From IMG/VR virus record IMGVR_UViG_3300037882_000224, positions 1 to 38,020 of that record: 38,020 bases of DNA. One strand, given 5' to 3'. Numbering within the stretch: the stretch's first letter is position 1; every line of letters starts with the position of its first letter. Of this stretch, positions 8,693-37,966 are shown in pieces. The notes under the pieces are model-generated. The model did no database searches, had not been told where the DNA came from, and was given only the letters and a program-made list of their open reading frames with translations. A program made the position numbers and the translations under genes. The stretch is from a virus.

Positions 8693-8705
<13 letters not shown>
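8409..8705 (+). CDS. DUF6948-like phage protein
   Basis: 98 residues. The block VIVRADKAGVFFGTL followed by NARKLYYWSGAAAVEQLAVDGVA is, from memory, diagnostic of DUF6948, a beta-rich family widespread in phages and of unknown role. First gene behind a consensus promoter, so likely strongly expressed. Its last residues ENVKEWKM are encoded by the first copy of a 17-bp tandem duplication, of which the second copy encodes the start of the next gene. Confidence 0.75.
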
Positions 8706-9419
<714 letters not shown>

Positions 9420-9445
<26 letters not shown>

Positions 9446-9642: not shown

Positions 9643-9927
9643 ATGTATAAATTACCAGTTGATTACACAAAACTGCATTACACCGAAAGAAAAGCGGTTA
9701 GGTTGCAGTATGTTGAAGAACAAAAAGGTTTGTGTTATTATTGCGGATGCCCTTTGAATGAAGAAGCCCCACAACACATAAAAGACAAAAAGATAAATTG
9801 GGCGTTATTTCCACAAAACTTTTTACAATATCCAATTCATTTGCAACATAATCACAATACAGAAATGACAGAAGGTGCAGTTCACAACTATTGTAATGCA
9901 GTTATGTGGCAATATGAGGGTCGTTAG
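9643..9927 (+). CDS. HNH endonuclease-like protein (recombination endonuclease VII-like)
   Basis: 94 residues. A zinc-type pair CYYCGCPL at about residues 31-38, then HLQHNHNTEMTEGAVHNYCNAVMW. The H-x-N-H and C-terminal HNYCN resemble endonuclease VII/HNH folds in phages. The end GAVHNYCNAVMWQYEGR seems complete. Probable role: phage DNA processing or junction cleavage. The next gene starts 2 nt after its stop. Confidence 0.7.
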   Translation: MYKLPVDYTKLHYTERKAVRLQYVEEQKGLCYYCGCPLNEEAPQHIKDKKINWALFPQNFLQYPIHLQHNHNTEMTEGAVHNYCNAVMWQYEGR

Positions 9928-9929
9928 CA

Positions 9930-10109
9930 TTGCACTTAACTAAAAGTAAGACAATTAGGTTTACTGAATATCAAATGAATAATTTAGCTATTTTAGAATC
10001 ATACGATGTAAATGTAAATCAATTTATCCGACAAGCTGTAAAAGAAAAATTACAACGAGATTGGAAAGGAATTAAAGAGAAAAAAGAACGAATTAAACTA
10101 CCATTTTAA
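9930..10109 (+). CDS. stand-alone ribbon-helix-helix protein (TTG start)
   Basis: 59-residue frame with no usable ATG upstream of the conserved part; the best start is TTG at 9930, 2 nt after the HNH stop. Pattern: strand KTIRFTEYQ, helix MNNLAILESY, turn DVNVN, helix QFIRQAVKEKL, then a basic tail ending ERIKLPF. This is a ribbon-helix-helix (MobC/CopG-like) DNA-binding fold. It is 46/56 identical to the C-terminal domain of the GIY-YIG protein at 37475-37966, including long stretches of identical DNA. Likely a DNA-binding dimer; target unknown. The start codon is the weakest point. Confidence 0.7.
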   Translation: MHLTKSKTIRFTEYQMNNLAILESYDVNVNQFIRQAVKEKLQRDWKGIKEKKERIKLPF

Positions 10110-10112
10110 ATC

Positions 10113-10322
10113 ATGGCAAAAGAAAAAACAAAGGGGATTAAATACACTAAACTTATTAGCAATATAAAGGTTATGGAAACTATTTTTATGCCATGCTTAA
10201 CAGATATTGAAGAGGATAGGATAAAGTCTTCTGTTCGTAAGTCAGCACATAGATTTGGTTATGTAGTAACCATGCGTAGGCTTTATAATAGCGGTGTAAT
10301 TCAAGTTATTAGAGAAAAGTAA
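10113..10322 (+). CDS. small basic hypothetical protein
   Basis: 69-residue Lys/Arg-rich protein (MAKEKTKGIKYTKLI ... RFGYVVTMRRLYNSGVIQVIREK). The basic helix-strand layout suggests nucleic-acid binding, but no family is recognised. It follows the RHH gene by 3 nt and is probably co-translated. Confidence 0.6.
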   Translation: MAKEKTKGIKYTKLISNIKVMETIFMPCLTDIEEDRIKSSVRKSAHRFGYVVTMRRLYNSGVIQVIREK

Positions 10323-12853: not shown

Positions 12854-12897
12854 AGTGTTACACTATTGGAATGTAGTTAGCTATATTCTTATTTTTG
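12854..12897 (+). promoter_or_regulatory. late-type promoter 1: palindrome + N25 + -7 box
   Basis: Palindrome AGTGTTACACT (12854-12864), exactly 25 nt, then TATTTTTG (12890-12897). No TTTG lies 19-20 nt upstream of the -7 box; the palindrome ends just before that position. The same layout occurs at 19874-19917 and, on the minus strand, at 19477-19434. Drives the operon 12917-19075. Confidence 0.75.
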
Positions 12898-12916
12898 TTG
12901 TATTCAAAAAACTAAA

Positions 12917-13756
12917 ATGGCTCGTTTATTAAGAAATACAGACTATAATAGGCAAATTCAAGAATCTAACATTTTACAGATAATTGAAGATGATGAGGAC
13001 GTAAGATTGTCAGTTGAACAAGCTGCTCAATCTGAAATGATTAGCTATTTAGCACAGCGATACCAAACGGATAAAGTATTTACAGATACAACTACTTTTG
13101 ACTTCGCTACTACCTACTACGGTAAAAATCTAATAGAATATACTGAGGATGATTTTGTTATTACAACTGCTTATATTGCAGATGATAGAGTTAGCTATAA
13201 GGGTAAAATCTATAAAAACATTTTGGCTTGTACTGGTGTGCTTCCTACTTACGCTACTAATTGGACGTATGTTACAGAAGATAAAAGCCTATATTACGCT
13301 AAAACTCCCAACGCAGAATATTCACATACTACTACATACGATATTGCTGATGTTGTTTGGTACAATGATATATCTTATACAGCACGTGTTGAAACAGTAG
13401 GACACTTACCAACAGAAACGGAATACTGGACTGCTGGGAGTACTTATTCTTTTGATGGTTTTTATCCTGAGAATACAACATATTGGATTAAAGGCGATAA
13501 CCGAAATCAACAAATAGTAACTTATCTAATTGATATTACTTTATATCACTTACATAGCAGAATTAACCCACGTAATGTACCTGAGTTAAGATACGTACGC
13601 TATGATGGTGGTAATGCTTTACAAACTGGTGGTGCTATTGGATGGTTAAAGAAAGTAGCAAGCGGAGATGTAACAGCGAATATTCCTGTTATAATTCCTG
13701 AGCAAGGAGTAAGTATAAGATACGGCAGTAATACTAAAAACACAAACACGTACTAA
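12917..13756 (+). CDS. DUF1320-like head-tail protein with two inserted binding modules
   Basis: 279 residues, first gene of the late operon. The N-terminus (LLRNTDYNRQIQESNI) and the C-terminal helices (VTYLIDITLYHLHSRI) fit DUF1320/Mu gp36-like neck proteins, normally about 140 residues. The excess is two repeats, residues about 83-119 and 138-173, with pattern TxAYxxxDxVxYxxxxYxxxxxTxGxxPTxxTxW. That pattern resembles small chitin/carbohydrate-binding modules (CBM5/12). A third copy occurs in the protein at 17549. Probable role: connector protein displaying sugar-binding modules on the virion. Confidence 0.7.
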   Translation: MARLLRNTDYNRQIQESNILQIIEDDEDVRLSVEQAAQSEMISYLAQRYQTDKVFTDTTTFDFATTYYGKNLIEYTEDDFVITTAYIADDRVSYKGKIYKNILACTGVLPTYATNWTYVTEDKSLYYAKTPNAEYSHTTTYDIADVVWYNDISYTARVETVGHLPTETEYWTAGSTYSFDGFYPENTTYWIKGDNRNQQIVTYLIDITLYHLHSRINPRNVPELRYVRYDGGNALQTGGAIGWLKKVASGDVTANIPVIIPEQGVSIRYGSNTKNTNTY

Positions 13757-14985
13757 TGTATATAGGAAAATATCATATACCATTTACAAAGGTAAAGAAT
13801 GTAACTGCAAATGTACCTAAAAGTGCAAATGTAGCACGTAAGATTACCTTTGAACAAACATTACATAGAACACGACAAGATATTGGTACATGGAGAGCAG
13901 CCGTATTACAAGCTGAATCATTACAATATCCTAATAGAGTTGAATTATACCGACTTTATAAAGACGTAATGAATGATGCTCATTTAACTGGGTTAATTAA
14001 TACACGTAAATACGCTATATTACAGAGTGAGTATAAAGTAGTTGATAAAGCAGATAAAGAGATTGAAGATAAGTCAGAATTAATACATCAAAAGTGGTTT
14101 TATGATTTTATAGACCATGCTATGGATAGTTTGTTTTATGGCTTTAGTTTGGTTCAGTTTGGTGCTTTAGAAAACGATGTATTTAAGACTATTGATTTAG
14201 TGCCACGCCAATATGTTAAACAGGAGTTTGATATAGTTGTAGAAACGCCAAGTGCTATTACAGGAGAGAATTTTTTAGATGCAAAATATAAAGGATGGGT
14301 TATTGGTATTGGAACAAAGAGAGATTTAGGATTATTAGCAAAGGCTGCTCCTTATGTTCTATGGAAAAAGGGAGCATTGCAAGCATGGGCAGAATATACA
14401 GAGATTTTTGGTACACCAATTCGTATTGGTAAAACAGATGTAAGAGATGAGGTTACACGTAGTAACATGGAAGGGTTTTTACGTAATATGGGCGTTGCCG
14501 CTTATGGAGTATTTGATACAAATGATATAATCGAATTAGTTGAAAGCAATAGAACAGATGCTTTTGATGTATTTGACAAAATGATTGAGCGTTGTAACTC
14601 TGAGTTGTCTAAATTGATTTTAGGGCAAACAGGAACAACAGATGAAAAGGCATACGCTGGTAGTTCAAATGTACATGAGAGAGTATTAAAAATGTACGCT
14701 GAACAAGATGAAATGTATATTACTAACATTCTTAATTTACAGTTAATCCCGTTGCTTAATTATCATGGTTTAGGCTTTGAAGGGTTAAGAATAGAGAGTG
14801 AAGAAGAAGATAAATTTAGCTATGAGGAAAAGGCTAAAATTGATATGGAGTTATTGAAATATTTTGATATAGACCCTAAGTATATTGAGGAAACATACGG
14901 AACACCTGTAATTAAAAAAGAGGTTGTAGAAAGTAAGGGTAGTATAACAAGTGTAAAAAATAAGTTAGACGAGTATTATAGCTAA
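13756..14985 (+). CDS. portal protein, DUF935 (Mu gp29-like)
   Basis: 409 residues. Blocks LYRLYKDVMNDAHLTGLINTR, DSLFYGFSLVQFG, DLVPRQYVKQEF and the later EIFGTPIRIGKTD are characteristic of the DUF935 portal family, which forms the dodecameric ring at the capsid vertex for DNA entry and tail joining. Starts on the last base of the upstream stop and is followed by the Mu-F-like gene, the usual order in Mu-like head modules. Confidence 0.9.
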   Translation: MYIGKYHIPFTKVKNVTANVPKSANVARKITFEQTLHRTRQDIGTWRAAVLQAESLQYPNRVELYRLYKDVMNDAHLTGLINTRKYAILQSEYKVVDKADKEIEDKSELIHQKWFYDFIDHAMDSLFYGFSLVQFGALENDVFKTIDLVPRQYVKQEFDIVVETPSAITGENFLDAKYKGWVIGIGTKRDLGLLAKAAPYVLWKKGALQAWAEYTEIFGTPIRIGKTDVRDEVTRSNMEGFLRNMGVAAYGVFDTNDIIELVESNRTDAFDVFDKMIERCNSELSKLILGQTGTTDEKAYAGSSNVHERVLKMYAEQDEMYITNILNLQLIPLLNYHGLGFEGLRIESEEEDKFSYEEKAKIDMELLKYFDIDPKYIEETYGTPVIKKEVVESKGSITSVKNKLDEYYS

Positions 14986-15794
14986 TGTGTAGCATTTGTG
15001 AAATAACAAATAAGAGTGAAGATTTATTAGACATATTTGATGAAAACGAGATAAATAGTTATTTACGTTTAATTCATCAAGGGGTTGTAACTGAATTTGC
15101 ATTAGATATTAATTATTATTACAAGGTAGCACGTAAATTAACTGATGGGATATATCAAGGCTTTGGTAAGGAACTTATTAAGACGCAGTGGGGAACGCCT
15201 GACTATGATATGCTTTATAACCTACGTGAGAATACGTATATATTTAGCGCAGCGAAAAGCTACCAACAGACGAAGGAAATAAGTTCTTTGCTTACTACTG
15301 AAAAAGGATTAAAACCGTTTAGTGATTTTGAAAAAGATGCTAAAAAGGTATTTAATACTTACAATAGGAACTATCTAACTGCTGAGTATAATAGTGCAAT
15401 AGCACAAAGTAGGAGTGCAAGTTTATGGATGGAAGTTGAAAGGGAAAAGAATATTTATCCTCAGTTGCAATATGAAACAGTTGGGGATGGTAGGGTAAGA
15501 CCTGAACACGCTGCATTGGATAATATTGTCAGACCTGTTGATGATAAGTTTTGGGACACAAACTATCCTCCTAATTCGTGGAATTGTAGGTGTGTTGTTT
15601 TGCAAGCGCAAGACTTGGTTAATACTGATTTAAGAGGCAAAAAGAAGATTATAGATGATGCGGTTCATCCTTTGTTTAGATTTAATAGTGGAAAAACAAA
15701 ACAGATATTTACAAAGGAACATCCATACTTCGATGTAGCACAAAAAGATAAAGATTATGCACGAAATAACTTTAATTTACCTTTACCTAAGTAA
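14985..15794 (+). CDS. head morphogenesis protein (Mu gpF-like)
   Basis: 269 residues. The signature near residues 160-205, DGRVRPEHAALDNIVRPVDD followed by FWDTNYPPNSWNCRC, is the conserved C-terminal core of the phage Mu F-like family (PF04233), a minor head protein in the procapsid. Directly after the portal and before the Mu-G-like gene, as in Mu-like clusters. Confidence 0.9.
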   Translation: MCSICEITNKSEDLLDIFDENEINSYLRLIHQGVVTEFALDINYYYKVARKLTDGIYQGFGKELIKTQWGTPDYDMLYNLRENTYIFSAAKSYQQTKEISSLLTTEKGLKPFSDFEKDAKKVFNTYNRNYLTAEYNSAIAQSRSASLWMEVEREKNIYPQLQYETVGDGRVRPEHAALDNIVRPVDDKFWDTNYPPNSWNCRCVVLQAQDLVNTDLRGKKKIIDDAVHPLFRFNSGKTKQIFTKEHPYFDVAQKDKDYARNNFNLPLPK

Positions 15795-16225
15795 TGGCAA
15801 ACGAAGCACGTAAAATACAAATGGCACAGATTAAGCTACAAAAGTCGCTTAATAACTTTGTAGTTGAGATGGGAACGGAGGCTAAAAACCACTTTGTTAA
15901 GTCTTTTAGAAATCAAGGCTTTGAAGATAAAAGTATCGTTAAATGGAAACATCGTAAACGATTAGAGCAAGGTAAAAGTAGAGCGATATTAGTTAAGTCA
16001 GGAGATTTAAGACGTAGTATAAGAGTAATAAATAAAAGTTATAGAAGTATTACATTGGGCAGTGATTTACCTTATGCACAAATACATAACGATGGATTAA
16101 ATGGTAGAGCCTTTGGTAAATACGCCTTTAAAATGCCTAAAAGACAGTTTATAGGACACTCTACAAAGTTAATTGACCATTTGCGTAGTAAGTTAGATAA
16201 ACGAATACAAAACGTGTTTAAATAG
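15794..16225 (+). CDS. virion morphogenesis / tail completion protein (Mu gpG-like)
   Basis: 143 basic residues. NHFVKSFRNQGFEDKSIVKWKHRKR, then ILVKSGDLRRSIRVI, YAQIHNDGLNGRAFGKY and MPKRQFIGHS form the pattern of Mu gpG/HK97 gp10-like head-tail proteins. It probably completes the neck or tail. Overlaps both neighbours by one codon. Confidence 0.85.
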   Translation: MANEARKIQMAQIKLQKSLNNFVVEMGTEAKNHFVKSFRNQGFEDKSIVKWKHRKRLEQGKSRAILVKSGDLRRSIRVINKSYRSITLGSDLPYAQIHNDGLNGRAFGKYAFKMPKRQFIGHSTKLIDHLRSKLDKRIQNVFK

Positions 16226-16704
16226 TGGAATTAGAATTATACATAGCATTAAAAAAAGAGATTGAAACAAAACTACCTGAGATAAAAAAGGTAGGGTTAT
16301 ATAACAATCAATTTGAAAACGAAAGCACAGAAAATGCTTTTGGTTATCCTTGTGTGTTTATTCAGTTTCAATCAAATGGATTTAGAGAGTTAACAAATGG
16401 AGTACAGCAATTCGATATGATTATCACAACCCATTTAGGGTTTGAAAGTTATAAGGATGAAGATACGGATGTATTAAGATTAAAGCAAGATTTATACAAA
16501 GTAGTTAATCGTTTTAGAAATGATAGTTTTAGCAGATTATTAAGGGTTGAAGATAGACCTAATTATAATCACAATAATATTCAGGTATTTGAAACAGATT
16601 ATAAAACAACAGGAAAAGACTTTACAACAGATATTAGACCAAGTACGAATGTAACAGCATTACCAGTTGTTGCTCCTACTATAACAACATTAGCTGATTT
16701 ATAA
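16225..16704 (+). CDS. tail terminator-like/neck protein (GTG start)
   Basis: 159 residues from a GTG that overlaps the previous stop (TAGTG). First residues LELYIALKKEIETKLPEIKKVGLY, then strands (GYPCVFIQFQ, QQFDMIITTHLGF) and a degenerate T-rich tail. The length, helical start and beta core fit tail terminator proteins (Mu gp37/lambda U-like), and the place after a Mu-G-like gene agrees. No direct signature, so moderate. Confidence 0.55.
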   Translation: MELELYIALKKEIETKLPEIKKVGLYNNQFENESTENAFGYPCVFIQFQSNGFRELTNGVQQFDMIITTHLGFESYKDEDTDVLRLKQDLYKVVNRFRNDSFSRLLRVEDRPNYNHNNIQVFETDYKTTGKDFTTDIRPSTNVTALPVVAPTITTLADL

Positions 16705-17549
16705 TGGCAAGAACAATTGCACAGATTCAGTCCGAAATGGACACAGAGCAAGCCCTACAAACAGGGTTAAGCGACTTAAATAGTCCAAGCCAAGTGGCAA
16801 TATACACGCTATGGAAATATGTTATATCTGCTTCTATTTGGGCGCATGAGAAACTATGGGATATTTTTAAATTAGAATTAGAGGCTATTGTAGATGCTGC
16901 ACCAATTGGAACGGATGGATGGGTGCAATCTCAATCTTTATTATTTCAATATAGCGCAACAGACCCTCAAGTAATAACTTTGGTTGACTTTGTTCCTGCT
17001 TATTCGGTTGTAGATACTGATTTGCAGATTATAACACGTTGCAGCGTAAAGACGTTACCAAATAAAACTGTTAATGTAAAGGTTGCTAAGTCAGACCCTC
17101 CATCTGCTTTAACGGCTACTGAATTAAGCTCCTTTGCTGGTTATTTAGATGATATTAGTTTTGCAGGAGTACAATATAATGCTATTTCTTTAGCCTCAGA
17201 TAAGCTATATCTTGATGCGGAAGTATTTTATAATGGTCAATATTCAAGTGTTATTAGCGATACCGTAATAGCTGCTGTAAATGATTATTTAGCTAACATT
17301 CCATTTGATGGTAATGTTAGAGTATCTGCTTTATATGATGCAATACAAAATGTATCAGGAGTAACCGATGTTATTATTAACGATATGGCTATACGTGCAG
17401 ATGCAACAGCATTTGGTAGTAAGACTTATTTAGTACAAAACAATACAACTATCTATAATAAATATCCAACATTTGCAGGATATGTAGTAGAAGAAACAAC
17501 AGTTAGTAATACTTTTGTTGATAAATTAACCTTTACGCCTGAAAGCTAA
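16704..17549 (+). CDS. baseplate J-like protein
   Basis: 281 residues. The N-terminus (ARTIAQIQSEMDTEQALQTG) and the C-terminal VRVSALYDAIQNVSGVTDVII block, preceded by VISDTVIAAVNDYLANIPFDG, match baseplate J-like wedge proteins. It would form part of the baseplate periphery. Its position in the head module, far from the main baseplate cluster at 27-31 kb, is unusual. Confidence 0.75.
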   Translation: MARTIAQIQSEMDTEQALQTGLSDLNSPSQVAIYTLWKYVISASIWAHEKLWDIFKLELEAIVDAAPIGTDGWVQSQSLLFQYSATDPQVITLVDFVPAYSVVDTDLQIITRCSVKTLPNKTVNVKVAKSDPPSALTATELSSFAGYLDDISFAGVQYNAISLASDKLYLDAEVFYNGQYSSVISDTVIAAVNDYLANIPFDGNVRVSALYDAIQNVSGVTDVIINDMAIRADATAFGSKTYLVQNNTTIYNKYPTFAGYVVEETTVSNTFVDKLTFTPES

Positions 17550-18214
17550 TGTTTGATATTTACATTATACAGTTTAGTTTATTGTGGGAAAAGTTATTCC
17601 CACCACACTTACGCAAAACATTACATTTAGTATGGGGTGCTGTTTTAGTTGCTCCATTACAATCGTTAAGAGATTTAATATTCAATGATTATGCTAATGG
17701 TAGTTACGCTTCTAAATATGATAATGCAACGGCTTATGTAGTTGGGGATAAGGTATATCTAAATAGAGTTTTATATAAATGTATTGATGCAACAACTGGT
17801 AATGCACCAACAAATACAACATATTGGGAGGTATTGTTAGATAATAGAATAGGAGTAAGAGAGCGAATAAAATACAATTCAAGAAAGGTTTTATTTGAAT
17901 ACGCTTTAAATAGATGGTTTGAAATAGGGTTGTCATACCCTCAGATATATATAACAAATAATAATATTTATGGTACTGCTTTTTTATTAGGAGCAACAGG
18001 AGAGTATAGTAGTAGTATGGCTAATAGTAGTTATTATCAACAGTATTACTTAGGTAACACATACGACTATAATTCTTATGCCTTTACTATTTATGTACCT
18101 ATTGCCGTATTTAATGCTTTAGCAAGTAATAATACAGATAGAGAGAATATAATAAGAGGCTTTGCAAATAGATATGTAATAAGTGGAATGAATTATAATG
18201 TAATAACATACTAA
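17549..18214 (+). CDS. baseplate-associated protein with carbohydrate-binding-like module
   Basis: 221 residues following baseplate J, where P2/Mu-like phages encode the next wedge or fibre-attachment protein. The N-terminal part is hydrophobic/aromatic (HLRKTLHLVWGAVLVAPLQS). Residues about 58-95 (TAYVVGDKVYLNRVLYKC then TGNAPTNTTYWEVL) are a third copy of the module in the protein at 12917. The C-terminus (YYQQYYLGNTYDYNSYAFTI) is Tyr-rich. Overall identity not recognised. Confidence 0.6.
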   Translation: MFDIYIIQFSLLWEKLFPPHLRKTLHLVWGAVLVAPLQSLRDLIFNDYANGSYASKYDNATAYVVGDKVYLNRVLYKCIDATTGNAPTNTTYWEVLLDNRIGVRERIKYNSRKVLFEYALNRWFEIGLSYPQIYITNNNIYGTAFLLGATGEYSSSMANSSYYQQYYLGNTYDYNSYAFTIYVPIAVFNALASNNTDRENIIRGFANRYVISGMNYNVITY

Positions 18215-18217
18215 CAG

Positions 18218-19075
18218 ATGAAAACAATTTTAACAACTTCAATTAGCGACCCTAATATACAACAACCATTTACTGGTAAGTCGCTTACATTCTTACAAGA
18301 TAATTTAGCAGATGTAGCAGATGGAATATCTAAATTTTTAGTAGGGGATAGAAATTATACTACTTCTGATTTTTATGTAGTAAGTGGATTAAGAGATACA
18401 GGAACACCACCAGTTTATGCAATAGCAGAAGGATGGATATTTTATAACGGAGAGTTATATTATTGTTCAGGTTATGCTGGTAATCCAGCTAATGATGTTA
18501 TAGGCACTATTACAACTACATACGATGCAACTATTGACCCTGTAACATTTACGGATGGTGTGGCACGTAGTGTACATCAAGTAAAAACAATTGTGTTAAG
18601 TGATGGTGTTTTAGGTAGTGGGGATATTGATTATGTAGACCTTATATTTTCTCAAGATGGATTTTATAGAATGTTTGCACAGGGCGAGTATTCGGGTTCA
18701 ACCGCTGCTGGTGCAACTGTTACACCTTTATCATCAAGTGAATTAGACCCTAATAGCTGGTTAAATGGAGCAACAGGACGATTTACACCATTAAAGGCTG
18801 GTTACTATGAGGTTAATGCACATTTTAGAATATCAGTACCAGTAGCTGCTGCTGTAATGACAAGTGTAATGTTTATAAGTAAGAATGGTTCAAGCGTTCA
18901 AACTGTTGGTGGTATGGTAGGGGATGTTGGATATGATAATAACCGTTATGCTTTTAATAGCCATATTGTTTATATGAATGGGACAACAGATTATTTAGAA
19001 TTAACGATAGTTCAAGACGTTGCAACAGCTTGTAGTTATTTTGCAAGTTTTAATGCAAAAAGAATAAGCGAATAG
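18218..19075 (+). CDS. tail fibre/receptor-binding protein with C1q-like domain
   Basis: 285 residues. The N-terminal half contains repetitive strands (VGDRNYTTSDFYVVSGLRDT, GTPPVYAIAEGWIFYNGEL). The C-terminal 130 residues form a C1q/TNF-like jelly roll: WLNGATGRFTPLKAGYYEVN, then VMTSVMFISKNGSSVQTVGG and TTDYLELTIVQDV. Such domains are common at fibre tips that bind host surface glycans. It is the last gene of the first late operon and precedes a terminator. Confidence 0.75.
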   Translation: MKTILTTSISDPNIQQPFTGKSLTFLQDNLADVADGISKFLVGDRNYTTSDFYVVSGLRDTGTPPVYAIAEGWIFYNGELYYCSGYAGNPANDVIGTITTTYDATIDPVTFTDGVARSVHQVKTIVLSDGVLGSGDIDYVDLIFSQDGFYRMFAQGEYSGSTAAGATVTPLSSSELDPNSWLNGATGRFTPLKAGYYEVNAHFRISVPVAAAVMTSVMFISKNGSSVQTVGGMVGDVGYDNNRYAFNSHIVYMNGTTDYLELTIVQDVATACSYFASFNAKRISE

Positions 19076-19097
19076 TTTGTTAGTTTTCTATTTGCTA

Positions 19098-19136
19098 AAG
19101 CCCTCCGCCTTGATTGGTTGTGAGGGCTTATTTATT
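19098..19136 (+). terminator. terminator of the first structural operon
   Basis: AAGCCCTC (19098-19105) pairs with GAGGGCTT (19122-19129), 16-nt loop, then ATTTATT. It ends the operon starting at 12917. The 19076-19454 stretch beyond it has no gene I can support and holds the candidate minus-strand RNA. Confidence 0.7.
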
Positions 19137-19204
19137 ACTCCAAAGAAAAACAAAGAATAAAATTAACAACTATAAAGAATTGTAAATAAGAAACAAAAAG
19201 AAAA

Positions 19205-19429
19205 AGCCCCTAAAAATAAATATTTCCTCTATGTTTTGTTTCATAGAGATATTGACCTGAACCAATACGAGTAGCGTAAAGTTTTGGCTTCGATGTAACT
19301 CAAATACCCTAAAACACAAAACCCCACCAAAATTGAATTTAGCAGAGTCTACGGTAAGGGTTTTGTTCGGTTTCCCGAAAGTATGTTTTAATGTATTTAT
19401 TGTTTAGACTCTGCTAGAAGTATAACAAC
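19205..19429 (-). ncRNA. candidate pseudoknotted minus-strand RNA under late-type control
   Basis: Read on the minus strand. UAGCAGAGUCUA (19416-19405) pairs perfectly over 12 bp with UAGACUCUGCUA (19351-19340). Between them lies a GAAA-tetraloop hairpin (UUCGG/CCGAA, 19379-19366). ACAAAACCC (19366-19358) is complementary over 9 bp to GGGUUUUGU (19324-19316), which would cross the first helix and make a pseudoknot. A last hairpin CUCUAUG/CAUAGAG (19248-19227) is followed by U-rich sequence, as in a terminator. The GNRA loop, U-rich end and upstream promoter (19441-19434) all favour the minus strand. No known family recognised. Start and end are estimates. Confidence 0.6.
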
Positions 19430-19433
19430 ATAG

Positions 19434-19477
19434 CAAAAGTACTTGATTGTGTTTTTATTTAGTGTTAGTGTTACACT
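19434..19477 (-). promoter_or_regulatory. late-type promoter 3 (minus strand)
   Basis: Minus strand: palindrome 19477-19467 (AGTGTAACACT), exactly 25 nt, then TACTTTTG (19441-19434). Same spacing as promoters 1 and 2. It points at the candidate structured RNA; the palindrome overlaps the 3' end of the 54-aa gene. Confidence 0.7.
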
Positions 19478-19619
19478 TTTTATTAATATACTTTATATCT
19501 TTAAAATCTCCGTACTGGTCAAAGATAATCTTAATAGATTGGGTATCGTTAATTTTTATAGTGCCTCCACACATTAGCACGTTTAACTCATCTTCAGTTA
19601 GCTTACTTATTATTTCCAT
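19455..19619 (-). CDS. small hypothetical protein co-operonic with RHH regulator
   Basis: 54-residue frame MEIISKLTEDELNVLMCGG..., overlapping the end of the RHH gene by 17 nt on the same strand, so probably coupled. Residues about 24-46 look like strand-helix-strand (INDTQSIKIIFDQYGDFKDI). The last codons (NTNTK) contain palindrome copy 3. Possibly an accessory partner of the RHH protein; no family recognised. Confidence 0.55.
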   Translation of the reverse strand: MEIISKLTEDELNVLMCGGTIKINDTQSIKIIFDQYGDFKDIKYINKKCNTNTK

Positions 19620-19866
19620 CTTTTAATGCTTTGTAAAGGTCGCAAAACTCTTTGTGCGGGTTAATATTATTTGAATCAATATAGGCGTAATGGAATTTAA
19701 CTATTTCCCTTGCTAATTCACTTTCTAATAGACCTCTTTTTATACAGTCATTTAAGAAACGTGTTTTAGTAGTTCCAGTTAAATAAGTTGTTGTTTTAAC
19801 ACGTACAAGTGTTAGTTTATGCCTTTGACAGGCTTCTAATTCTTCGCTATTTTTTTTGTTTCTCAT
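19603..19866 (-). CDS. ribbon-helix-helix regulator, candidate late-gene regulator
   Basis: 87 residues. After a basic, helical N-terminus (MRNKKNSEELEACQRHKLT), the segment VRVKTTTYLTGTTKTRFLND followed by CIKRGLLESELAREIVKFHY fits an RHH fold: strand, helix, G-turn, helix. It would bind palindromic DNA as a dimer. The gene runs opposite to the structural operons, and its ATG (19866) is 7 nt from an exact AGTGTTACACT palindrome (19874-19884) that also lies at fixed distance from the opposing late promoter. It is a candidate activator of the palindrome-type promoters and repressor of itself. Fold is moderately clear; the regulatory role is inferred. Confidence 0.65.
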   Translation of the reverse strand: MRNKKNSEELEACQRHKLTLVRVKTTTYLTGTTKTRFLNDCIKRGLLESELAREIVKFHYAYIDSNNINPHKEFCDLYKALKDGNNK

Positions 19867-19873
19867 TTAAAAA

Positions 19874-19917
19874 AGTGTTACACTATAAACAATTGGCAAA
19901 TATAATAAATATTTTTG
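19874..19917 (+). promoter_or_regulatory. late-type promoter 2 (capsid/tail operon)
   Basis: Palindrome AGTGTTACACT (19874-19884), exactly 25 nt, TATTTTTG (19910-19917). No TTTG -33. The ATG of the protease gene (19922) is only 4 nt after the -7 box, so the mRNA is probably leaderless or nearly so. Confidence 0.75.
19897..19904 (-). promoter_or_regulatory. -7 box for the divergent RHH gene
   Basis: TATATTTG on the minus strand (19904-19897). An ATTG lies 20 nt upstream (19928-19925). Transcription would begin near 19892, putting the palindrome (19884-19874) about 8-18 nt inside the transcript, a position expected for repression. Confidence 0.5.
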
Positions 19918-19921
19918 TTAT

Positions 19922-21031
19922 ATGCAATTCAAATACATAAAAAATATAGCGGAAGATAATTCAGAAGCTACTATTTTATTATACAATCAAATTGGTAGCT
20001 CAATAGATGCTGAGGGGTGTATAACTTATGGTATTGATGGCAGTTCTTTTGCATGGGAAATGCAATACTTACAAGATAAATGTAAGAAAATTAATGTAAG
20101 AATAAATAGTATTGGTGGCAATGTAATTGATGGATATGCAATTATATCATCTATACTTAACTCTAAAGTTCCTTGTGATACTTATATTGATGGATTAGCT
20201 GCTTCAATTGCTGGTGTTATTGCAATAAGTGGTAAGAAAGTTTACATGGCAGATTATGGAACTTTAATGTTACACAATCCAAGTGGTGGGAATGATACTG
20301 CTATATTAGATTTAGTTAAAGGTACATTGGTTACTCTATTTAAGAATAGAACAGCGCAAAGCGAAGAAGAAATAGTATCTATGATGGATGCTGAAACATG
20401 GATGAACGCAACAGACGCCAAAGCTAAAGGAATGGTAGACGTTATCGTTTCAAGTGGTAAGAAAGTTAAAATTAATTCAACAGAGAGCCTTTATAATATG
20501 GCTCTAATTTATAATAAATTAATCAACCCGAAAAAACAAATGAATTTAATCACAAACAAATTAGGATTAGATGAAAATTCAAACGAAGATGTTGTAGTTT
20601 CTAAAATTACTGAATTGCAAAATTCATTAGAGGAAATGAAGGCTGAAAACGAGAGAATTAAATCTGAGTTAGCTAAAGCTGAGGCTGAATTGACTACTAT
20701 CGAATCTGAGAAAGAGGCACATAAAAATGCAGCTATCGAGGAAATGGTAAACTCTTTTAATGTAAAAGAAGAAGACAAAGCAGCTACAATCGAATTAGCA
20801 AAAGTAAATTTTGATGCAGTAAAAAATATGCTATCAAAACAATCAGTTAAAGAGCCTGTAAAAGTATTTGATTTCAAAAACGTAGTAACTCCAAAAGGTT
20901 CAGAAGACCGTTCATCTTGGACTATTCGTGATTGGGAAAAGAAAGATGCTAAAGGATTAGCTGAAATTAAGAATAACACTCCTGAAGTGTATAATGAAAT
21001 GTATAACTCACACTACAAAAAACAAAAATAA
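19922..21031 (+). CDS. ClpP-type head maturation protease fused to scaffold
   Basis: 369 residues. Protease domain: INSIGGNVIDGYAII, nucleophile S95 in YIDGLAASIAGVI, H118 in TLMLHNPSGG, as in ClpP/S49-like prohead proteases. From about residue 195 the protein turns into a Glu/Lys-rich coiled coil (LEEMKAENERIKSELAKAEAE) that resembles an internal scaffold. Such fusions build the procapsid, cleave the scaffold and head proteins, then self-destroy. First gene of the second structural operon; the capsid gene follows. Confidence 0.9.
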   Translation: MQFKYIKNIAEDNSEATILLYNQIGSSIDAEGCITYGIDGSSFAWEMQYLQDKCKKINVRINSIGGNVIDGYAIISSILNSKVPCDTYIDGLAASIAGVIAISGKKVYMADYGTLMLHNPSGGNDTAILDLVKGTLVTLFKNRTAQSEEEIVSMMDAETWMNATDAKAKGMVDVIVSSGKKVKINSTESLYNMALIYNKLINPKKQMNLITNKLGLDENSNEDVVVSKITELQNSLEEMKAENERIKSELAKAEAELTTIESEKEAHKNAAIEEMVNSFNVKEEDKAATIELAKVNFDAVKNMLSKQSVKEPVKVFDFKNVVTPKGSEDRSSWTIRDWEKKDAKGLAEIKNNTPEVYNEMYNSHYKKQK

Positions 21032-31237: not shown

Positions 31238-31519
31238 ATGGCAACTAAAAGTGTAACACTAAAGGATGGTCAAACCTTGTTTGATATATCTTTACAACTG
31301 TATGGTAGTATCGAATATGTTTATAAAATCATTGAAGATAACCCTACAATAACTAATATTCATTATCCTAATTTAACTGGATTGAGTATTACTTATGATG
31401 AACAAGGATTTGATTTAACGAATTATTTTAAAACAAACGGAACGAGTATAACAAATGGTTATCCTGAGATTAACACAGGTAATTCTTTTGATGAAAGTTT
31501 TGATTTATCTTTTAACTAA
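31238..31519 (+). CDS. LysM-like tail protein (gpX-like)
   Basis: 93 residues. TLKDGQTLFDISLQLYGSIE then YVYKIIEDNPTITNIHYPNL fits LysM-like domains in gpX tail proteins. The early codons (Ser-Val-Thr-Leu) contain a fourth copy of the late palindrome, in the opposite orientation (31250-31260). Confidence 0.75.
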   Translation: MATKSVTLKDGQTLFDISLQLYGSIEYVYKIIEDNPTITNIHYPNLTGLSITYDEQGFDLTNYFKTNGTSITNGYPEINTGNSFDESFDLSFN

Positions 31520-37130: not shown

Positions 37131-37523
37131 CTAATTCTGAACAGTATTATAAATAAACAATCCACCCAACACTCCACTAATTATTTGCCATAGCGTCTTT
37201 CTTTTTTTCTCAGCTATAACCTTGCCTTGTTCACTCTCATAAGCCTCTCGGTAACTATTAAGCATTCTATCTTGCATAACTGAAAGAGTATTACAGTTGA
37301 ATAATACTAAACTATCATTATTGATAATATTACGCTGGTATGCTATAATACTATCTTGCTCAACTATTGTGCTATCTAACACAGGAGCGTTCGTGTAATC
37401 CCTTAAAAAGCATCTTAATTCATGCTTAGTTATATTTATACTATCCTGAGAATAAACTGAGATAGGGAATAGTATTAAAACGGCAATTTTATACGTTCTT
37501 TTTCTTCTTTTATTTGTTTCCAT
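37131..37523 (-). CDS. exported protein with N-terminal signal and C-terminal membrane segment
   Basis: 130 residues. Basic start METNKRRKRTYK, hydrophobic segment IAVLILFPISVYS followed by Q, typical of a Bacteroidota signal peptide with Gln after the cleavage site. The middle is Ser/Asn-rich and probably helical; residues 108-126 (WQIISGVLGGLFIYNTVQN) are a second hydrophobic stretch. Could be a spanin or envelope protein; no clear family. Overlaps the GIY-YIG-RHH gene end by 49 nt. Confidence 0.65.
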   Translation of the reverse strand: METNKRRKRTYKIAVLILFPISVYSQDSINITKHELRCFLRDYTNAPVLDSTIVEQDSIIAYQRNIINNDSLVLFNCNTLSVMQDRMLNSYREAYESEQGKVIAEKKRKTLWQIISGVLGGLFIYNTVQN

Positions 37524-37966
37524 TCTTTTTGTAATTTTTCTTTTATTGCTTGTCTTATAAATTGGTTTACATTAACATTGTATGATTCTAAAATAGTTAA
37601 ACTATTCATTTGAGATTCAGTAAACCTAATTGTCTTGATTTTAGTTAGTTGCTTAGGATTTGTTTTATCTCTTTTTGATACAATATATCCACCTCCCTTA
37701 TTCATATTTAATCCGTTTTCAGAAAAACTATTATATTCTTTTATATAAAAAATTTCCCTTTCTTTTAAATACTCGTCTGAAAAATCTCCATGCTCTAAAA
37801 TACTAGTAAAATGGTTTTCAAACCCATATACACAAATTGAATCATATAACCTTTTTTGAGTTTTGCAATTTTTAGTTTTATATAAATAAAACCTTTTTTC
37901 AATATCCTTAGATAAACCTATATAAATTTTATTTTCAGGATTTATTATTTTATATATTCCTTTCAT
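37475..37966 (-). CDS. GIY-YIG endonuclease fused to RHH domain
   Basis: 163 residues. N-terminal GIY-YIG core (MKGIYKIINPENKIYIGLSK, conserved Glu in KEREIFYIKEYN). A short linker (YIVSKRDKTNPKQL) leads into a C-terminal RHH domain, residues about 107-163 (KTIRFTESQMNSLTILESYN then VNVNQFIRQAIKEKLQKEWK, ending RIKLPF). The RHH part is 46/56 identical to the stand-alone protein at 9930-10109. The fusion may direct cleavage to a chosen site or be a recombination product. A mobile or chimeric gene. Confidence 0.85.
   Translation of the reverse strand: MKGIYKIINPENKIYIGLSKDIEKRFYLYKTKNCKTQKRLYDSICVYGFENHFTSILEHGDFSDEYLKEREIFYIKEYNSFSENGLNMNKGGGYIVSKRDKTNPKQLTKIKTIRFTESQMNSLTILESYNVNVNQFIRQAIKEKLQKEWKQIKEEKERIKLPF

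Follow-up and report, generated by a model that had tools for sequence, protein, structure and literature searches.

A palindrome centred at -43 as candidate operator of a proposed ribbon-helix-helix late activator in a phage of Bacteroidota with Mu-like head genes

The IMG/VR virus record IMGVR_UViG_3300037882_000224, a contig of 38,020 bp (analysed at full length and referred to as the window), comes from a phage whose head genes are Mu-like and whose tail is contractile. Its analysis has revealed an 11-bp palindrome located at a fixed distance upstream of a -7 box at three promoters (P1, P2 and P3). Judged from comparisons among related phages, this palindrome is probably the operator of a phage late activator, most likely an 87-amino-acid predicted ribbon-helix-helix (RHH) protein, which would recruit the host RNA polymerase. 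By its sequence the phage is a relative of the Winoviridae of Flavobacterium, with Bacteroidota as the host group.

The composite AGTGTNACACT-N25-TANNTTTG, where N25 stands for 25 nucleotides of any kind, was found exactly three times in the window, at 12854-12897 (plus strand), 19874-19917 (plus strand) and 19477-19434 (minus strand). P1 (12854) lies between the terminase stop codon and the connector/portal/head operon (12917-19075), P2 (19874) is upstream of the genes for the protease, the capsid, DUF2586 (sheath) and the tail, with the ClpP-like prohead protease starting at 19922, and P3 (19477, minus) is followed by a stretch in which no clear genes are seen. The composite was absent from all 300 shuffled versions of the window, in which the palindrome alone occurred on average 0.04 times per shuffle, and a search that tolerated up to three mismatches gave 7 matches where 0.85 would be expected. 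An initial annotation of this DNA had described the palindrome, the N25 spacing and the -7 box at these three places, had considered chance unlikely and had reported TTTG at -33 in the early-type promoters 958, 8344 and 35019 but not in the palindrome promoters, and all of this was recovered here. A fourth palindrome, which that annotation does not mention, lies at 31250-31260 within a coding sequence (31238-31519) near the gene start (codons K-S-V-T-L); it has no -7 box at the N25 spacing and is probably a coding coincidence. If the whole arrangement were likewise a product of chance or of coding constraints, as this copy in a gene might suggest, neither the shuffles, nor the fixed distance to the -7 box in many phages, nor the agreement within each phage described below would be expected, and the probability left for this explanation is negligible. 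A scan of all viral contigs with the spacer relaxed to N20-30 was uninformative on the frequency of the pattern, as the matches listed were mostly chance occurrences in genes.

The -7 element of Flavobacterium johnsoniae, defined by RNA sequencing, consists of T-12, A-11, T-8, T-7, T-6 and G-5 (PMC6847099). The -7 box of the phage promoters corresponds to the host consensus, and when its TA is set at -12/-11 in F. johnsoniae coordinates the palindrome spans -48 to -38, with its centre at -43. The early-type promoters 958, 8344 and 35019 all have the form TTTG-N19-TANNTTTG, whereas TTTG at -33 is missing in all three palindrome promoters (0/3); the P1 spacer starts with ATTG, which leaves a TTG 21 nucleotides upstream of the box, and nothing alike is present in P2 or P3. 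The same absence was observed across related phages, where TTTG at -33 was missing from all 58 distinct late promoters and TTG alone stood there in 7, within the range of slid controls (0-13). Promoters without a -33 element should be weak unless helped. The palindrome occupies the place of a class II (proximal) activator site, around -41 to -43 and overlapping the -35/-33 region, and no match to a phage sigma-70 region 2 domain was found in the 38-kb record.

About 160 loci of related phages were gathered by terminase and protease searches. The gene order TerL, P1, connector and, further downstream, the RHH gene divergent from P2 and the protease recurs in many of these loci, and a dyad element is found after TerL and before the ClpP-like protease, at a nearly constant spacing but with letters that vary by phage. 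In L125 the palindrome and the N25 spacing are retained though the spacer has diverged. P1 and P2 carry ACTGTTACACT and ACTGTTACAGT in L126, and their elements are identical within L131 (AGTGTTACAGT), L212 (TAGTAACAATA), L270 (TTGTAACAACT) and L262 (AGTGGGTCA), while L156 has TAGTAACAA at one promoter and its reverse complement, TTGTTACTA, at the other. Without any motif being chosen, dyad symmetry in the phages with the RHH gene peaks 31-32 nucleotides upstream of the -7 box at both P1 and P2, and this peak is missing in phages without the gene.

The agreement between P1 and P2 was quantified in 14 representatives over a window from 38 to 22 nucleotides upstream of the -7 box and anchored on the box, which resolved a signal that an unanchored comparison of 11-mers had left too noisy. 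The match within phages was 8.57/9 compared with 7.28 ± 0.23 between phages, the within-phage value being reached in none of 2000 permutations, and the regions flanking the element on either side gave no within-phage agreement in the same test. An element that differs between phages and matches within each phage is as predicted for a phage-encoded cognate regulator. The proposal of the initial annotation that an activator may replace -33 recognition at late promoters is thus supported by the relatives through the 0/58 count, the dyad spacing and the within-phage match. The annotation had also named as counter-evidence any relatives that keep the gene order and lack motif and spacing; in those compared here the exact letters do change, but the spacing and the matching of P1 with P2 are retained. 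A host regulator, for instance of the CRP/FNR type, would fit the position and symmetry of a general class II site, but it is a very improbable owner of an element that varies by phage, matches within each phage and accompanies a phage gene.

This gene, to which the initial annotation did not point, is the RHH gene divergent from the protease, which is conserved in relatives with about 45 distinct homologues that share a short strand-like VRVTTYL, then GxxKNxF...DC and then ESxLAxxIIxxHY. The RHH protein had no match in the phage collection, and no cultured phage with the gene was found. In partial Mantel tests, similarity of the P2 element followed that of the RHH core after ClpP relatedness was taken into account (r 0.34, 0/2000). 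P2 adjoins the RHH gene, but P1 lies 7 kb from it, and there too the element followed the RHH core (partial r 0.38, 8/5000) and not the protein next to P1 (r -0.13). Hitch-hiking of neighbouring DNA is therefore no explanation for the co-variation at P1. The site could also belong to an activator that acts at -43 but is another protein of the early region, with the RHH protein as co-regulator or autorepressor on the same site. Early open reading frames (ORFs) of unknown function are present (e.g. 10113-10322) and RHH proteins often work as repressors, but the tested early ORFs did not turn up in most relatives, unlike the RHH gene, many of the loci stopping short of the early region, and it is the RHH protein that the P1 element tracks; such an arrangement is considered unlikely.

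The 87-residue protein is predicted to have an RHH fold. In a monomer model built from 34 sequences, an earlier model from 7 sequences having been poor, residues 20-30 are extended and two helices follow (31-44 and 48-65), with block-mean pLDDT (predicted local distance difference test) values of 92-97 for residues 21-60. The fold of the model matches mainly RHH proteins, with CopG superposed over 44/44 residues at 1.6 Å, and with NikR, the RHH domain of PutA, AtaR, KacA and SvtR among the other matches. RhlR and Antennapedia, which are not RHH proteins, appeared in few rows with low Z and were taken as chance matches. An extra N-terminal segment resembling a helix-turn-helix (HTH) precedes the RHH part in L156, L254 and L282.

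According to the mechanism proposed, one or more RHH dimers would bind from -48 to -38 around the centre at -43 and would contact the host RNA polymerase, probably through sigma region 4 or the alpha subunit, in replacement of the -33 TTTG. This binding would turn on the virion operons from P1 and P2, presumably late in infection, and in this phage only it would also switch on a putative noncoding RNA from P3. The RHH gene itself must have a promoter near P2. Of 42 distinct P2 regions, 35 contain a minus-strand box TANNTTTG, which in 34 lies 11-12 nucleotides from the palindrome edge, and the P2 palindrome would then fall at about +9 to +19 of the RHH transcript. A site within the initially transcribed region of the RHH gene would allow the protein to limit its own synthesis, so that one binding event would drive rightward transcription and block the RHH gene.

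Several observations weigh against this mechanism. RHH proteins are most often repressors, the fold-match Z-scores are only 4-5, as may be expected given the domain length of about 45 residues, and no RHH family match for the 87-residue protein was found in Pfam, PHROG or PDB sequences. The spacing, N25 in most relatives, is N26 in some, a clear -33 is missing from most copies of the divergent promoter that would serve the RHH gene, so that basal expression of this gene is presumably weak, and the permutation tests control shared ancestry only partly. With the repressor habit of the family in mind, the RHH protein could silence P1, P2 and P3 early or in a lysogen, late expression being then a derepression. 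Protein bound at the site, which reaches into the upstream portion of the promoter, could exclude the polymerase, and the relative L285 is contained in a contig of a host metagenome-assembled genome (MAG), so that there may be temperate members among these phages. Silencing alone is quite improbable, since P1, P2 and P3 without a -33 would be weak unless helped, and the fixed N25-26 spacing at -43 resembles that of class II activators such as Mor.

By analogy, Mor of phage Mu appears to be the functionally nearest parallel to the proposed RHH activator. At the Mu middle promoter Pm, the element that replaces the -35 is centred at -43.5, and Mor binds its two inverted repeats of 5 bp (PMC4390567), and the Mor-related C protein acts at the Mu late promoters (PMC4461284). 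Here too, 5-bp arms centred at -43 stand in for the -33 and the host RNA polymerase would be used. In contrast to Mor, the proposed protein has a predicted RHH fold, its gene diverges from that of the protease and its site would also lie in its own leader, and the promoters serve virion operons, Pm being a middle promoter. No match to the Mor/C domain PF08765 was found in the 38-kb record, which is possibly incomplete; in Bacillus subtilis, used as a control, the domain was picked up. With the RHH regulators of the MetJ/Arc/CopG type (CopG, NikR, AtaR, SvtR) the protein would share a strand-helix-helix of about 45 residues, a short palindromic site and, likely, autoregulation, but activation of late genes is proposed here, whereas most known members are repressors or antitoxins. 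In phage phi29, the early protein p4 activates the late promoter A3 and represses adjacent early promoters (PMC3100819). The proposed RHH protein would similarly turn on a late promoter and repress its neighbour, and it would differ from p4, which works with p6 and shapes a longer stretch of DNA.

Where this RHH family is missing, another small ORF of DNA-binding type often stands divergent from the protease. In L154, L155 and L158 this ORF is RHH-like by eye and P1 and P2 share TTGGCACAAA/TTAGCACAAA; the corresponding P1/P2 pairs are GATAACCTAAA/GATAACCTACA in L157 and TTTTAGCATAA/GTTTAGCATAA in L169. An HTH-like ORF occupies the spot in L280, L284, L185 and the cultured Flavobacterium phages lotta8-1 and FPSV-S1. 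These two Winoviridae have the same gene order as the phage studied here and a small divergent ORF of DNA-binding type, which differs in being HTH-like, not RHH (L290, 9742-9924, minus; L289, upstream of the protease). They carry the direct repeat AAAGAC-N5-AAAGAC at the protease promoter only; the repeat was not found after TerL, and a two-promoter rule is thus not supported in them. No family library supports the RHH-like reading of the ORFs in L157, L158 and L169, and the anchored P1-P2 statistic is not significant in phages without this RHH family (248/2000), so that replacement of the activator is only a lead. It may tentatively be imagined that the spot is a plug-in site for varied and perhaps unrelated small DNA-binding proteins acting as late activators (two or more RHH types, HTH and HTH-RHH fusions), with the operators of the two virion promoters rewritten to match and a late-gene code particular to each phage, which in the present one would also drive a structured noncoding RNA.

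In L230 and L285, GTTACAAAATC is common to both promoters (upstream of o12917 and clpP), but ahead of the protease gene no RHH ORF could be found. The MAG contig with L285 is a 182-kb Bacteroidetes contig, which suggests an integrated prophage.

Table 1. Coordinates of the palindrome promoters and associated features in the window.
Feature	Position	Strand	Remarks
P1 palindrome AGTGTTACACT	12854..12864	+	Exact match; kept with N25 in L125; proposed activator operator
P1 -7 box TATTTTTG	12890..12897	+	Heads the connector/portal/head operon
P2 palindrome AGTGTTACACT	19874..19884	+	Proposed operator of the protease/capsid/sheath operon and the divergent RHH gene
P2 -7 box TATTTTTG	19910..19917	+	Ahead of the ClpP-like prohead protease (19922)
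P3 palindrome AGTGTAACACT	19467..19477	-	Inside the 3' end of a 54-amino-acid ORF (19619-19455, minus)
P3 -7 box TACTTTTG	19434..19441	-	Exact match
Minus-strand -7 box TATATTTG, proposed RHH-gene promoter	19897..19904	-	Conserved in relatives
87-amino-acid predicted RHH protein, proposed late activator	19603..19866	-	Divergent position, fold, operator co-variation
Putative noncoding RNA driven by P3	19213..19429 (ends approximate)	-	Folding z -3.3; terminator scan

A perfect inverted repeat of 12 bp (TAGCAGAGTCTA) lies in the putative RNA downstream of P3, together with a terminator-like hairpin (19249-19226). Searches of Rfam at the gathering score, for tRNA and tmRNA and among related phages gave no match, and in the close relative L205 its place is taken by a small lipoprotein-like ORF.

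Family matches in the window include Portal_Mu (2.6e-74), Phage_Mu_F (1.3e-19), Terminase_3, CLP_protease and DUF2586. Two canonical promoters are placed back to back at 917 (minus, TTTG-N20) and 958 (plus, TTTG-N19) and separate a small HTH-like ORF (690-896, minus) from the early operon, in an arrangement that resembles a lysogeny-type switch region. The protein encoded at 8693-9445 has a long GDGSGSGYG repeat tract, and the repeat is open in several frames. An RHH-like tail, KTIRFTE.QMN.L.ILESY.VNVNQFIRQA.KEKLQ..WK.IKE, is present in two copies (9922-10110 and 37475-37966), one of which ends a GIY-YIG-like ORF, and a recent duplication is possible.

Neither a late-gene activator for phages of Bacteroidota nor an RHH protein acting as a phage late activator was found described in the open-access literature. 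If the proposed mechanism is true, it would provide a simple sequence signature for late promoters in uncultured phages of Bacteroidota, many pairs of proteins and operators in which the evolution of RHH specificity could be studied, and a class of orthogonal inducible promoters for a phylum with few genetic tools.

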